From: Clostridiaceae bacterium
Lineage (GTDB): Bacteria > Bacillota > Clostridia > DSM-8532
Direction: 5' to 3'
Assembly (NCBI GenBank): GCA_012521705.1
Contig: JAAYLX010000009.1
Coordinates: forward strand, 1 to 42,507
Length of the DNA: 42,507 bases
The translations under genes and the position numbers were made by a program. The number at the start of each line of letters is the position of its first letter. Within the stretch, counting starts at the first letter, position 1. This document shows positions 4,878 through 14,709 of the stretch, one piece after another. The notes beneath the pieces were generated by a model. The model saw only the letters and a list, made by a program, of their open reading frames with translations, ran no database searches and was not told the DNA's origin.

Positions 4878-4891
4878 TATTTAAGAAGTAC

Positions 4892-4937
4892 AGGAGTGAG
4901 TTAAGATTTTCAGCGTACAAATCTTAACATCACTCCT
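4892..4937 (+). other. Long inverted repeat downstream of lepA
   Basis: AGGAGTGA plus TTAAGATTT (4892-4909) pair with AAATCTTAA plus TCACTCCT (4919-4937), giving 17 base pairs with a small bulge and a 9-base loop. No T run follows, so this is not a classical intrinsic terminator. It could stabilise the lepA 3' end or be a processing site. The rest of the 229-base lepA-hemW gap shows nothing else I can name. Confidence 0.5.
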
Positions 4938-5106
4938 GCTCTATTTGGTATAGACAATATTCCATAAAAAGAGTTCCCGCTTTCATACTGTCTGAAACAG
5001 CATGCTAATGACCGGCTGAATTATTTAAGGTAAGAGGCGCTTAGTATAAAATCCAAAATAAAACCAAAGAACTTATAGAACTAATTGAACTTAAAGGTAA
5101 ACATCA

Positions 5107-6246
5107 ATGGAAAATAAGAGTATTGGATTGTATATACACATTCCGTTTTGCATAAAAAAGTGCAATTACTGTGATTTTTGCTCGTATCCGAATATGGAGG
5201 AATACTGGGATAAGTATGTTTACGCAGTATCTGATGAGCTTGTCTTAAAATCTCCTGAGTTTGAAAGTTATATTGTAGGCTCTGTCTTTGTTGGAGGGGG
5301 TACGCCTTCCCTTTTACCGCCTGAATATATTGCCCGGATCTTTGAAATAGTGCACAAATACTATAAAATATCTGATGTTTGTGAAATAAGCATAGAATCC
5401 AACCCTGGCACAATAACTGAAGAAAAGTTCAGAGTATACCGGAGCATTGGCATCAACAGGCTCAGTATCGGGCTTCAGGCATGCCAGGAGCACCTGCTTA
5501 AAAATTTGGGCAGGATACATACCTATAAGGATTTTATAACTGCGGTTGACCTTGCCCAAAAACACGGATTAACTAATATAAATGCCGATATAATATTTGG
5601 AATACCCGGCCAGACCTTCAAAGACTGGGAGGAAACTCTCAGCAATATTACTTCCCTGGGGCTGACACACATTTCATGTTATGACCTTATTATAGAGGAA
5701 GGAACGTTGTTCGGTGAAATGCAGGAAAAAGGTATTCTCAGGGAGATGGACCATGACCTGAACAGGCAAATGTACCACTTTGCGATAGATTACTTTTCGT
5801 CAAAAGGTTATGAACAATACGAAATATCCAATTTTGCGAAACCTGGTTACCAGTGCCGTCATAATATGAATTACTGGGAGAGAGGTGAGTATATCGGAAT
5901 TGGTGCAGGCGCCCACTCCTTTAGCGGTAACAGAAGATATGCCAATATTCAGAATGTGGAAGAGTATATCGAAGGAGTAGAGACCGGGAACCTCAAATTA
6001 TCCGAGGATTCCTGTCTTACAACGGAGGAAGCTCTTGCCGAAAAAATGATATTGGGACTTCGGATGAATAAAGGAGTTGATTTGGGGATTGTATCGAAAG
6101 AATTCGGGATTGATGTTGAGTCAAAGTATAAAAAATCAATAGAGATCCTGTCAGAGGAAGATTTGATAACGCTGAAAGGCAAAGTATTGTGCCTGACAAA
6201 TAAAGGGCTGGATTTGGCCAATAAAGTCTTCGTTGAGTTTCTTTAA
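5107..6246 (+). CDS. hemW: Radical SAM heme chaperone HemW
   Basis: HemW is a HemN-like radical SAM protein that binds heme and is often mis-annotated as oxygen-independent coproporphyrinogen oxidase. The 379 residues begin YIHIPFCIKKCNYCDFC: C15, C19 and C22 form the CX3CX2C cluster motif, with an extra Cys at 25. The HNMNYW motif at residues 252-257, followed by GIGAGAHS, is characteristic of HemW rather than true HemN. The start is the ATG directly before this motif, though its ribosome-binding site is weak. It is linked to the next gene by a 40-base gap, so they probably share a transcript. Confidence 0.93.
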   Translation: MENKSIGLYIHIPFCIKKCNYCDFCSYPNMEEYWDKYVYAVSDELVLKSPEFESYIVGSVFVGGGTPSLLPPEYIARIFEIVHKYYKISDVCEISIESNPGTITEEKFRVYRSIGINRLSIGLQACQEHLLKNLGRIHTYKDFITAVDLAQKHGLTNINADIIFGIPGQTFKDWEETLSNITSLGLTHISCYDLIIEEGTLFGEMQEKGILREMDHDLNRQMYHFAIDYFSSKGYEQYEISNFAKPGYQCRHNMNYWERGEYIGIGAGAHSFSGNRRYANIQNVEEYIEGVETGNLKLSEDSCLTTEEALAEKMILGLRMNKGVDLGIVSKEFGIDVESKYKKSIEILSEEDLITLKGKVLCLTNKGLDLANKVFVEFL

Positions 6247-6286
6247 ACTCAAGGACTTAACAGAAAAATGAATGGGGGTCATATAG

Positions 6287-7486
6287 ATGGATATTAAAGA
6301 TAGAAACATATTTGACGGAAATAACGGATTACTTCAGGAAAACAAAGCATATTTGGAGGATTTTTTAATAGAGGTACGAGAGATTATTGAAGATATAGAA
6401 CTGGAGATGGTTAACCTCCAAATGGATCCCCGAATCAAAGACAGCCTTAATTCTATATATTGCAGTTTCAACACACTCAGGGGGATGGCAGGACTGTTAA
6501 ATAATCCGCTTTGCAACAAAATAATTAATGCCACTGAAGAGCTGCTTGATACAGTAAGAAATAATAGTTCTTTATTTAACAAAAACATTTTCAACAGAAT
6601 CCTTGATTCTGTGAACTTTATTAAGAAGCTGTGCACCGATACACCGGTTATCTTTGATTATAGATTTATCGCTGAAGCGGAAGAACATATTCAAGCCGTA
6701 AGTAAAATTAACGATGATATTCTTCAGGATAATGCCCAAAGCGGGGACAATTCAGGAAGTAGCAGGGCGGATGCCAGCTATGGCTCAAATGAGCCGGTTT
6801 TACGGGAAAAAAAGGTTGATGCGACAGATATAATAAAGGAAATCAGAACACAAAAAATAAGGACCAACGGTAACACCGACCAATATGTAAAAATCCCCCT
6901 GGAACGTCTGGACCAGATAATTGAAATTATCCGTGAAGTCGAAAATATTTATGATTCATTGAAAAACGAAATTACCCTCAGGTTCGGAACCAATGATTCT
7001 CTGACCGAAGGCTGCGCAAAATCATACTACCTCATAAATGATATTAAAAAGATTCTGACCGAACTTCGGATGGTTACATTGCATCAGGCTTTCCAGAAGC
7101 TCACCAGATTGACATGTTCATTTATTGAAGAACACCAGCTTGAAGTCAAATTTTCCACCATAGGTGAGAATGTGGAAGTTGACAAGGATATAGCTGATAA
7201 GCTGGTACTGCCATTGGGCGAACTTATCAAATTGCTTCTTGAAACCAGAATATCGGTGACCGACAAAACAGAACTTTGTATCAGCAACATTGAAGTAATG
7301 GCTTATGAGGAAAACGATCTGGTGAACATCGACATCAACTCAGACATGGATTTGAACCCGGAGGATTTCGGCAGGGCTGAAAAACTCAAAGATATCAGGC
7401 AGCAGCTAAATTCACTGAATTGCGCTTTAACATTAGGCTCCAATGCCGACAAAGGGTTAAGAATCACCATCTCAATACGGGAATGA
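6287..7486 (+). CDS. Degenerate CheA-like protein (pseudo-kinase)
   Basis: This 399-residue protein is built like a shortened chemotaxis histidine kinase CheA. Residues about 20-115 resemble the Hpt (P1) domain, but the phospho-acceptor segment usually written HTLKG reads NTLRG, with Asn at position 62 instead of His. A polar linker (about 140-190) is followed by a P3-like dimerisation helix pair (VKIPLERLDQIIEIIREV and LRMVTLHQAFQKL). From about 286 a HATPase-like region follows: the N-box position reads GELIKLLLET, the DDGxG position is INSDMDL, and the tail GSNADKGLRITISI still resembles a HATPase end. No CheW-like P5 domain is present. Catalysis looks lost, and a structural or sequestering role is my inference. 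It ends at a strong terminator just before hrcA. Confidence 0.7.
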   Translation: MDIKDRNIFDGNNGLLQENKAYLEDFLIEVREIIEDIELEMVNLQMDPRIKDSLNSIYCSFNTLRGMAGLLNNPLCNKIINATEELLDTVRNNSSLFNKNIFNRILDSVNFIKKLCTDTPVIFDYRFIAEAEEHIQAVSKINDDILQDNAQSGDNSGSSRADASYGSNEPVLREKKVDATDIIKEIRTQKIRTNGNTDQYVKIPLERLDQIIEIIREVENIYDSLKNEITLRFGTNDSLTEGCAKSYYLINDIKKILTELRMVTLHQAFQKLTRLTCSFIEEHQLEVKFSTIGENVEVDKDIADKLVLPLGELIKLLLETRISVTDKTELCISNIEVMAYEENDLVNIDINSDMDLNPEDFGRAEKLKDIRQQLNSLNCALTLGSNADKGLRITISIRE

Positions 7487-7511: not shown

Positions 7512-7546
7512 AAAATATCCGTTAGAATAACGGATATTTTTTATTG
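7512..7546 (+). terminator. Intrinsic terminator ending the lepA-hemW-cheA-like unit
   Basis: AAAATATCCGTTA (7512-7524) and TAACGGATATTTT (7528-7540) form a perfect 13-bp stem with a GAA loop, followed by more T. It separates the upstream genes from the hrcA promoter. Confidence 0.9.
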
Positions 7547-7611: not shown

Positions 7612-7640
7612 TTGACAAAGGATAGCTGTAATGTTATTTT
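7612..7640 (+). promoter_or_regulatory. Sigma-A promoter of the hrcA operon
   Basis: TTGACA (7612-7617), 17-base spacer, TATTTT (7635-7640). The predicted start is a few bases before the CIRCE element, the usual arrangement for HrcA repression. Confidence 0.75.
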
Positions 7641-7650
7641 TATGATAGCA

Positions 7651-7677
7651 TTAGCACTCATTACAGGAGAGTGCTAA
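7651..7677 (+). promoter_or_regulatory. CIRCE operator (HrcA binding site)
   Basis: TTAGCACTC, nine bases, GAGTGCTAA is an exact match to the CIRCE consensus. HrcA, encoded by the first gene downstream, represses the operon here, and GroEL normally helps keep HrcA active. The element lies at the start of the mRNA between the promoter and the hrcA ribosome-binding site. Confidence 0.98.
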
Positions 7678-7699: not shown

Positions 7700-8758
7700 A
7701 TGGTCTGGGAAAAAGAGCTCAATGAAAGGAAGCGTACAATTTTAAAGTCTATAATTGACGATTATATCAAATATGCTCAGCCGGTGGGCTCAAGGACTAT
7801 TGCCCGGAAGCTTGAGCTTGGATTGGGATCGGCTACCATCAGAAACGAAATGGCCGATTTGGAGGAATTAGGCTATATCACCCAGCCCTATACTTCTGCC
7901 GGTCGTATACCTTCCGATAAAGGATATCGTTTTTACGTTGAGCATCTTATGCAACTCCATAGTCTTGCATATGAGGAAATGGAAAAAATCCAGGCAGCTA
8001 TGAGTGAACAGATTGAGGAGATAAATGAGCTCATTAAAAAAGTGAGCATAATTATATCCAATATTACAGGATATACTTCCTTTGTGCTCTCCCCGCAGTT
8101 AAAGAAAGTTACCATTAAGACAATAAGATTGATCTATGTGGACGAAAAAATGCTGTTGCTTGTTGTTGTTGCCAACGGCGGAATAGTCAAGGACAAGATT
8201 GTTAAACATCAGAGCAATCTGGACGAGGACACCGTTCACAGACTGAGCAATTTTTTGAATAAGGTTTTCTCAGGCAAGACTGTTGTTGAATTAAGTGAAC
8301 AGAACTTCCTTGATATACAGCTTAATCTTAAGGTACCCAAGGAAGCTGTTAAGATTATTCTTGAAGCAATTGAGGATTGCATCCGCAAGATTGATACCAT
8401 AGATGTGTATCTTGACGGAGTTACCAATATATTAAATTTCCCTGAATTCAGCGATCTTTTGAAGGCAAGGGAGATACTGGAACTCCTTAAGGAGGAAGAA
8501 GTAGTTATAAACCTGGTTAAGAATCCTCCTCCGGGAAGTAATCTTGATTATAAGATCGGAAGCGAAAATGAACTCAATGAGTTGAAGGAACTCAGCGTCA
8601 TAACCACTGTATACGGCAGTGACGGAAAGAACTTAGGCACATTTGGCGTCATAGGGCCTACCCGTATGGCCTATGGCAAAGTCGTGTCTTCAATAAAATA
8701 TATCAGAGAAGTATTAAACAAGGAGCTCCTCAAAATACTTGGGGATGACTCCTTATAA
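7700..8758 (+). CDS. hrcA: Heat-inducible transcription repressor HrcA
   Basis: HrcA binds CIRCE and represses class I heat-shock genes. At 352 residues it is of normal length. The N-terminal winged helix (ERKRTILKSIIDDYIKYAQ, then PVGSRTIARK, then LGSATIRNEMADLEELGY) and the central GAF-like domain with FVLSPQ, IRLIYVD and PEFSDL blocks are all present. An AGGGGAGGTG ribosome-binding site supports the ATG. As the first gene behind CIRCE it is autoregulated. grpE starts 17 bases after it. Confidence 0.97.
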   Translation: MVWEKELNERKRTILKSIIDDYIKYAQPVGSRTIARKLELGLGSATIRNEMADLEELGYITQPYTSAGRIPSDKGYRFYVEHLMQLHSLAYEEMEKIQAAMSEQIEEINELIKKVSIIISNITGYTSFVLSPQLKKVTIKTIRLIYVDEKMLLLVVVANGGIVKDKIVKHQSNLDEDTVHRLSNFLNKVFSGKTVVELSEQNFLDIQLNLKVPKEAVKIILEAIEDCIRKIDTIDVYLDGVTNILNFPEFSDLLKAREILELLKEEEVVINLVKNPPPGSNLDYKIGSENELNELKELSVITTVYGSDGKNLGTFGVIGPTRMAYGKVVSSIKYIREVLNKELLKILGDDSL

Positions 8759-13587: not shown

Positions 13588-14329
13588 GTTTGTTGTAAGT
13601 CAAAAAGATATTGAAAATGGCTGTATAATTATAACCGGTGATGACCTTAAACATTTAAGACAGGTATTAAGACTCGGCACGGGGGATAAAATAGGAGCTT
13701 TTGACGGTCTTGGAATGGAATATGAGGCACAGTTGACCGAGGTAAGCAAAGACCGGGCGGTGGCAGTAATATTATCTTCCTTTGAAGCCCAGTCCGAACC
13801 GGCCACTCGTGTAACTCTGTTCCAGGGATTGCCCAAAGGGGACAAAATGGACCTGATTATTCAGAAGGCTGTGGAATTGGGAGTTCATAAAATCGTTCCA
13901 GTTATTACCCAAAGAACGGTTGTCCAACTGGACAAAAAATCAAAGGAGAAAAAGGCTGAGCGGTGGTCAAAAATAGCCAGGGAAGCTGCAAAGCAATGCC
14001 ACCGCGCATACGTTCCCGAGGTTGCAATACCGGAGGACTTTGACAAAATTTTAGAGGAAATTAAAAATTATGACAATACTGTAATGTTCTATGAAGGTAC
14101 GGTAAAAAAATGTTTGAAAGAATTGCTAAAATGTTATACTATTAATAAGATTAAAGATATTGCTCTGTTAATTGGTCCCGAAGGTGGATTCACAGAACTC
14201 GAAGTTGAAAAATGCCGCACTGCAGGTATTGATATAGTCAGTCTTGGAAAACGGATACTCCGTACCGAAACAGCAGCAATTACTTCACTTTCAATTATCA
14301 TGTATGAGATGGGTGAACTTCAGCCATGA
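13580..14329 (+). CDS. rsmE: 16S rRNA (uracil1498-N3)-methyltransferase
   Basis: RsmE methylates U1498 of 16S rRNA and is a SPOUT (trefoil-knot) enzyme. I start it at ATG 13580 (MHRFVVSQ), inside the last codons of prmA, which gives an 8-base overlap and a family-typical 249 residues; longer starts would run far into prmA. Conserved blocks are DDLKHLRQVLRL, FQGLPKGDKMDLIIQKAVELG, REAAKQCHRAYVPEV and the SAM knot LLIGPEGGFTELEVE, ending with LRTETAAI. The prmA-rsmE pair downstream of dnaJ is conserved in Firmicutes. Confidence 0.95.
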   Translation: MHRFVVSQKDIENGCIIITGDDLKHLRQVLRLGTGDKIGAFDGLGMEYEAQLTEVSKDRAVAVILSSFEAQSEPATRVTLFQGLPKGDKMDLIIQKAVELGVHKIVPVITQRTVVQLDKKSKEKKAERWSKIAREAAKQCHRAYVPEVAIPEDFDKILEEIKNYDNTVMFYEGTVKKCLKELLKCYTINKIKDIALLIGPEGGFTELEVEKCRTAGIDIVSLGKRILRTETAAITSLSIIMYEMGELQP

Positions 14330-14709
14330 AAAAAACAACTTTTGTTATCACTGATGATGCAGTCTTTATGCGCGGCCTCCTTAGAAAAATAATTGAGTCT
14401 TCCGATGAATATGAAGTTGTAGGAGAAGCTTCCAATGGTCTTGAAGCGATTGAAATAGCCCAGCAATTACAGCCAGATATAATTACTCTGGACATTACAA
14501 TGCCGGTAATGGACGGAATTCAAGCAGTTTCTAAAATCCTTGAAGTAAGCCCTAATTCAAAAATAATTATTGTTTCTGCCATGGGACAGCAACATATGGT
14601 TATTGAAGCCCTGAAACAAGGCGCAAAGGATTTTGTCACAAAACCTTTTGAAAAATCAAGGGTTTTTCAGGCTATTGAGAATGTACTTAGCAGAGAAGAC
14701 GGCAAATAA
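14326..14709 (+). CDS. Stand-alone CheY-like response regulator
   Basis: This is a single receiver domain of 127 residues with no output domain. All receiver residues are present: acidic pocket D10/D11, phospho-acceptor D56 in TLDITMP, S84 in IIVSAMGQQ, and K106 in FVTKPF. The AMGQQHMVIEALKQGAKDF block is very like chemotaxis CheY of Thermotoga and Bacillus. It starts within the rsmE stop region (ATGA, 4-base overlap), so the two are translationally coupled. No CheA, CheW or receptor gene is adjacent, but a degenerate CheA-like protein is encoded about 7 kb upstream in the same gene cluster. Its kinase and partner are unknown. Confidence 0.9.
   Translation: MKKTTFVITDDAVFMRGLLRKIIESSDEYEVVGEASNGLEAIEIAQQLQPDIITLDITMPVMDGIQAVSKILEVSPNSKIIIVSAMGQQHMVIEALKQGAKDFVTKPFEKSRVFQAIENVLSREDGK

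Follow-up and report, generated by a model that had tools for sequence, protein, structure and literature searches.

The gene at positions 6287-7486 of the window (the whole 42,507-nucleotide stretch of Clostridiaceae DNA analysed here) encodes a protein, named X, that retains the P1, P3 and P4 folds of CheA, with P4 stripped of its ATP-binding boxes. Because the tested CheA features (the phosphorylatable histidine, the ATP boxes and P5) are missing, X is not a CheA but a pseudo-kinase descended from one, which may act like DivL. The reading that we prefer, to which we give about an even chance of being right, is that X forms a dimer on which a CheY-type response regulator docks, with no phosphotransfer between them, in a manner comparable to DivL. 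The gene and its parts are listed below.

6274-6278, forward strand: GGGGG resembling a ribosome-binding site (from the sequence; a G-rich site is likewise placed in most orthologs)
6287-7486, forward strand: CheA-derived pseudo-kinase gene X, 399 aa (open reading frame; orthologs in 28/32 family genomes)
6341-6730, forward strand: P1 (Hpt) domain, residues 19-148 (match to structure 1i5n; 1tqg, 2.1e-7)
6470-6472, forward strand: codon 62 (AAC, Asn) at the site of the phosphorylated histidine (alignments)
6731-6874, forward strand: linker, residues 149-196, a two-motif MshEN-like remnant with motif 1 deleted (motif scores against orthologs)
6782-6853, forward strand: degenerate MshEN-like motif 2, residues 166-189 (6/10, against 8-9/10 in motif-complete orthologs)
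6875-7072, forward strand: P3 dimerisation segment, residues 197-262 (sequence and model matches)
7073-7483, forward strand: P4 (HATPase) fold, residues 263-399, with the N box, G1 Asp and G2 box gone and a 40-residue lid deletion

Phmmer searches against solved structures matched CheA P1 (1tqg) to residues 21-115 of X (E 2.1e-7) and CheA P3-P4 (6s1k) to the whole of X (2.1e-12), the best stretch being residues 192-328. When the search was made with a profile built from X orthologs, the CheA match improved to 9e-21. An AlphaFold comparison with CheA, proposed along with the original prediction, recovered all three folds: the model of X, built as a monomer (mean pLDDT 74.8), aligned in VIA-align 2 with the four-helix P1 of Salmonella CheA (1i5n; Z 17.6, rmsd 2.0, 126 residues) and with CheA P4 (8pf2; Z 17.8), and Foldseek matched it to CheA P3P4 (4xiv; 8e-11), the P3-P4 part scoring Z 16.8 in VIA (3.2 A, 200 residues). 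The idea that P1 is an ordinary four-helix bundle was rejected on the sequence matches to CheA P1. Pfam reported an Hpt match below threshold and nothing else on X, and no CheW/P5 domain after P4; the protein stops at residue 399.

The original prediction, made from the letters alone, had described an Hpt-like domain with Asn62 (FNTLRG at residues 61-66), a P3-like dimer segment, a HATPase-like domain without N box or DDGxG, and the absence of a CheW-like domain, and all four descriptions held. In P4, the N-box Asn of CheA is Leu316 in the window protein, the G1 Asp is Ser352, and the G2 box is deleted. The same losses mark the whole family. When 26 full-length X orthologs were compared with 17 true CheAs, the N-box Asn and the G1 Asp were found in 0/26 and the G2 box was deleted in 26/26, whereas all were present in 17/17 true CheAs; the spacing from G1 to G3 is 26-28 residues in X (n=26) versus 68 in the true CheAs (n=17). 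Domain matches and box losses alike are far beyond chance. Box and lid loss in every one of the 26 proteins argues that the kinase died once, in the common ancestor of the X family. Judged from these alignments, the trait that unites the family is a dead P4, not a dead Hpt site. The earlier description of a pseudo-kinase that keeps its fold therefore stands as regards the CheA folds, but its emphasis on the Hpt site does not, as most orthologs have a histidine there.

Across the 26 X proteins, the site of the P1 histidine is occupied by His in 16, Asn in 5, Asp in 2 and Arg, Ile or Val in the others, and a Lys or Arg follows three residues on in 23. A check of whether Asn62 is conserved among orthologs, suggested with the original prediction, showed that it is not. 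A maximum-likelihood tree made without that column gives a minimum of four histidine losses, one of them common to the window protein and that of its sister genome (G012), so that the P1 histidine was lost several times after the kinase died.

ChpT and Spo0B are phosphotransferases with a degenerate CA domain. X could be a protein of this type, whose P1 histidine relays or drains phosphoryl groups between regulators while P3 and P4 do no more than give the dimer and its docking face their form; histidine-free copies, including that in the window, would then be non-phosphorylatable competitors. The frequency of His and of the downstream Lys/Arg in a protein that is otherwise kinase-dead fits such a role. 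X also resembles both proteins in pairing a dimer scaffold with an ATP-binding fold that has degenerated. However, the histidine of ChpT and Spo0B lies on the dimer helices, whereas the corresponding site of X lies on a separate Hpt domain and carries Asn in the window copy, in which phosphotransfer at residue 62 is impossible. At least four histidine losses, with P1 under purifying selection, mean that phosphotransfer cannot be the sole conserved role. We regard this alternative as unlikely, yet deserving of serious attention.

Estimates of selection bear on the same point. Pairs of His-less orthologs show dN/dS values of 0.07-0.16, and in the pooled His-less pairs the value for P1 alone (0.11) compares with 0.114 for the whole protein; so selection maintains P1 even where phosphotransfer at the residue-62 site is impossible. 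Pairs bearing the histidine give 0.064, with synonymous change near saturation. Selection on a dead protein suggests that X acts by binding a partner, not by transferring phosphate.

Could X nevertheless be drifting to decay and be functionless in the window species? The window protein has lost both the histidine and MshEN motif 1, its branch in the tree is long (0.55), and the ratio of X distances to hemW/hrcA distances is raised in the window clade (1.2-1.7, versus 0.5-1.3 for lineage pairs outside). Some relaxation of constraint in the window lineage is likely, because X evolves faster there than elsewhere. Against decay, the reading frame has stayed open in the face of saturated synonymous change (pS 0.82, pN 0.30 relative to the sister G012), the locus and the ribosome-binding site are retained, and 35/44 columns that are invariant in other orthologs are kept; P3 preserves 11/11 of the columns that do not vary among the other 24 orthologs. 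We consider a functionless X very improbable. Decay private to the window genome was rejected on three grounds: the locus is conserved, the frames are open, and the dN/dS values are low. According to the original prediction, orthologs with an intact histidine and ATP-binding boxes would have marked this copy as simply a decayed gene; many orthologs do keep the histidine, but not one keeps the ATP boxes, and purifying selection acts on the copies that lack His.

A second element that has been lost in places lies in the linker joining P1 to P3. In most X orthologs it contains two 24-residue motifs, for instance RIGEILVQEGALAQSEVEDVLKKQ and KFGEIVLREKKVDASDIIKAIRMQ, separated by 5-7 residues, which score 10/10 and 8-9/10 relaxed positions in 22/26 orthologs; among 2000 shuffled proteins, a score of 8 was reached eight times and never exceeded. 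MshEN (T2SSE_N) is a c-di-GMP receptor domain with such a two-motif layout, and fusions of MshEN with CheA and CheX have been reported (PMC5013675). The X linker shares with MshEN its two RLGxx..G..L..L..Q motifs and their spacing, but in the second X motif the central Gly and the Arg are missing. Motif 1 is deleted in the window protein and in that of G012, and broken in those of G010 and G013; the window protein thus does not have two tandem 24-residue motifs. Pfam T2SSE_N gave no match in the X linker, a profile of X matched PilF and PilB weakly (E 0.02 and 0.11), and the region has low pLDDT in both structure models. The motif pattern points to an MshEN-like linker, putatively of the c-di-GMP receptor type, in most X orthologs.

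A search for orthologs between hemW and hrcA, also proposed at the outset, found X in 28/32 genomes of the family, including Thermoclostridium caenicola DSM 19027. The gene lies downstream of hemW in 28/28 genomes and upstream of hrcA in 24/24 loci whose contig extends that far, and none of the 28 orthologs has an in-frame stop. The position between these genes, which the original prediction did not recognise for any chemotaxis protein, is thus a conserved property of the family. X was not found in four genomes of one genus (g2, tentatively T. stercorarium-like), and hemW runs directly into hrcA in the two of these that were inspected (G020 and G014). In the concatenated tree g2 is nested inside the family, so the simplest history is a single gain of X in the ancestor of the family and a single loss in g2.

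Beyond the family, complete CheAs were the only matches to X. In the tree, X proteins form one clade with full support and a long stem, and complete CheAs elsewhere in the phylum show the P1-MshEN-P3-P4 layout with P4 and P5 intact. The clearest parent-type protein is a 600-aa CheA (genome G735, E 4.4e-77). X resembles it in the order P1, linker, P3, P4, in the folds, in an FHTIKG-type P1 motif present in many orthologs and in the two-motif MshEN-like linker. In contrast, X lacks P5, the N box, the G1 Asp and the G2 box, has a lid 40 residues shorter, and is found at the hemW-hrcA locus, not in a che cluster; the window protein also lacks the histidine and MshEN motif 1.

The features flanking X are as follows.

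5107-6246, forward strand: hemW, the upstream neighbour, with a 40-nt gap to X, likely co-transcribed (ORF calls and conserved adjacency)
7512-7540, forward strand: hairpin resembling an intrinsic terminator, 3' of X (13 pairs plus a T run; fold z -5.0)
7612-7640, forward strand: hrcA promoter TTGACA-17-TATTTT (hexamers and spacing identical in three orthologous loci)
7651-7677, forward strand: CIRCE operator, delimiting the hrcA operon (exact match, against an expectation of 0 from shuffled sequence)

CIRCE is exact in 24 of the 28 ortholog loci, namely those reaching hrcA; in three other loci scanned, the terminator was found in 1/3 and the promoter in 3/3. With a terminator, a promoter and CIRCE following X, and X starting 40 nt behind hemW, the gene is thus most likely carried on a hemW-X transcript. 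A long inverted repeat (caggagtgagttaagatt ... aatcttaacatcactcctg) resembling a terminator occurs at 4880-4940, between lepA and hemW; if it is one, hemW-X would be a two-gene unit. The original prediction had placed X beside the heat-shock operon, which is correct as to adjacency but not as to membership: the three elements before hrcA rule X out as a member of that operon. They also weigh on the idea that X aids HemW or the heat-shock operon by virtue of its position. This idea draws on the constant adjacency to hemW and on covariation of evolutionary rates with hrcA and hemW (given below), but every domain of X is of a signalling type, X is separated from hrcA by its own terminator and the hrcA promoter and operator, hemW and hrcA manage without X in g2, and hrcA does likewise in other families. 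We find it barely credible.

A candidate partner is encoded downstream.

14326-14709, forward strand: CheY-like response regulator gene (cheY2), candidate partner (Pfam Response_reg 8.3e-30; conserved 3' of rsmE)

In several families of the class, with or without X, cheY2 closes the run hrcA-grpE-dnaK-dnaJ-prmA-rsmE, and it is kept in g2, the clade without X. It shares 4 nt with the end of rsmE, and no kinase gene adjoins it. In a first partial correlation of distance matrices, the pair X-cheY2 stood out (0.72). Once more taxa and motility controls were included in branch-rate tests, this specificity was gone, and cheY2 was dropped as a demonstrated partner: branch rates of X covary with those of cheY2 (r 0.45), hrcA (0.54), fliM (0.54), the P1-P3 part of CheA (0.51), fliY (0.42) and hemW (0.31), and values for lepA, grpE, dnaK, dnaJ, prmA, rsmE, yicC and gmk are near or below zero. 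The value for X (6287-7486) and hrcA (7700-8758) has p 0.0003, though the two genes are transcriptionally separate. The pattern hints at a role in motility or chemotaxis, without singling out cheY2.

That the rates of X covary with those of the P1-P3 part of CheA and of the flagellar switch genes would also suit a modulator of the true CheA of the cell, in which X entered mixed P3 dimers or the receptor array and tuned the kinase. P3 is the best-kept part of the window protein, and the window genome (G000) has a flagellar CheA, split over two contig ends (C2:1-1035 and C45:1-1038; L087, L088), whose halves look intact, with HTLKG, the N box and DDGRG present. On the other hand, X lacks P5, and so has no known route into arrays, and the P3 segments of X and flagellar CheA are far apart (about 20-28% identity) and fall into separate clades on the tree. 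We judge modulation of CheA to be improbable.

For the docking pseudo-kinase that we prefer, the sequences strongly indicate that a CheA of the Hpt-MshEN-P3-P4-P5 type lost P5, the ATP lid and the boxes, and that the ancestor of the Thermoclostridium-like family already had the resulting gene lodged between hemW and hrcA. P3 most likely holds the X dimer together, and the P1 face most likely docks a CheY-type regulator, which X would sense, hold or scaffold without autophosphorylation. In most relatives the MshEN-like linker could make docking dependent on c-di-GMP, and relatives with the histidine could still take a phosphoryl group from the regulator. In the window lineage, from which both the histidine and MshEN are gone, docking and dimer functions alone would remain. 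A fuller version, which we advance tentatively and with more doubt than confidence, makes X a CheA-derived counterpart of DivL: a c-di-GMP-responsive CheA would have become a family-wide kinase-dead dimer reading a CheY-type regulator, with the histidine and the c-di-GMP domain repeatedly discarded and docking alone conserved.

DivL of Caulobacter has no kinase or phosphatase activity and binds DivK~P; like X, it is derived from a histidine kinase, has its phospho-histidine replaced and has lost the use of ATP (PMC4211667). As the model for a dead kinase sensing a response regulator, it shows that a design of this kind is workable. DivL, unlike X, belongs to the ordinary DHp-CA kinases, carries PAS domains and has kept its ATP lid; X has no DHp-type core, as its His-site domain is an Hpt domain apart from the P3 dimer helices, it descends from CheA and has P1 as a domain of its own, and its binding of a regulator is predicted. 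CheA3 of Rhodobacter sphaeroides is likewise described as a CheA derivative with P1 and without a kinase of its own, which acts on CheY6 (PMC6829392); in the same account its histidine is phosphorylated by CheA4 and it carries a phosphatase domain, whereas X has retained P3 together with a P4 that is dead. Literature searches on CheA without P5 and on inactive CheA homologs found nothing.

If the preferred reading is right, CheA would join the histidine kinases known to have become dead sensors or scaffolds. The X family would then offer a natural series at one locus (histidine kept or lost, MshEN kept or lost), in which one could ask what selection keeps of a phosphotransfer domain once phosphotransfer is gone.

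The CheA of G735 (L123, 877-2676) carries an MshEN-like domain in the place of P2 and lies in a cluster of the order cheY-cheX-cheX-cheA-cheW-receptor fragment. Two further CheA-like proteins (L125 and L127) have MshEN-like motifs and intact P4 and P5, with no recognisable Hpt histidine motif on their contig fragments; in that of L125, an Asp is aligned at the histidine site.
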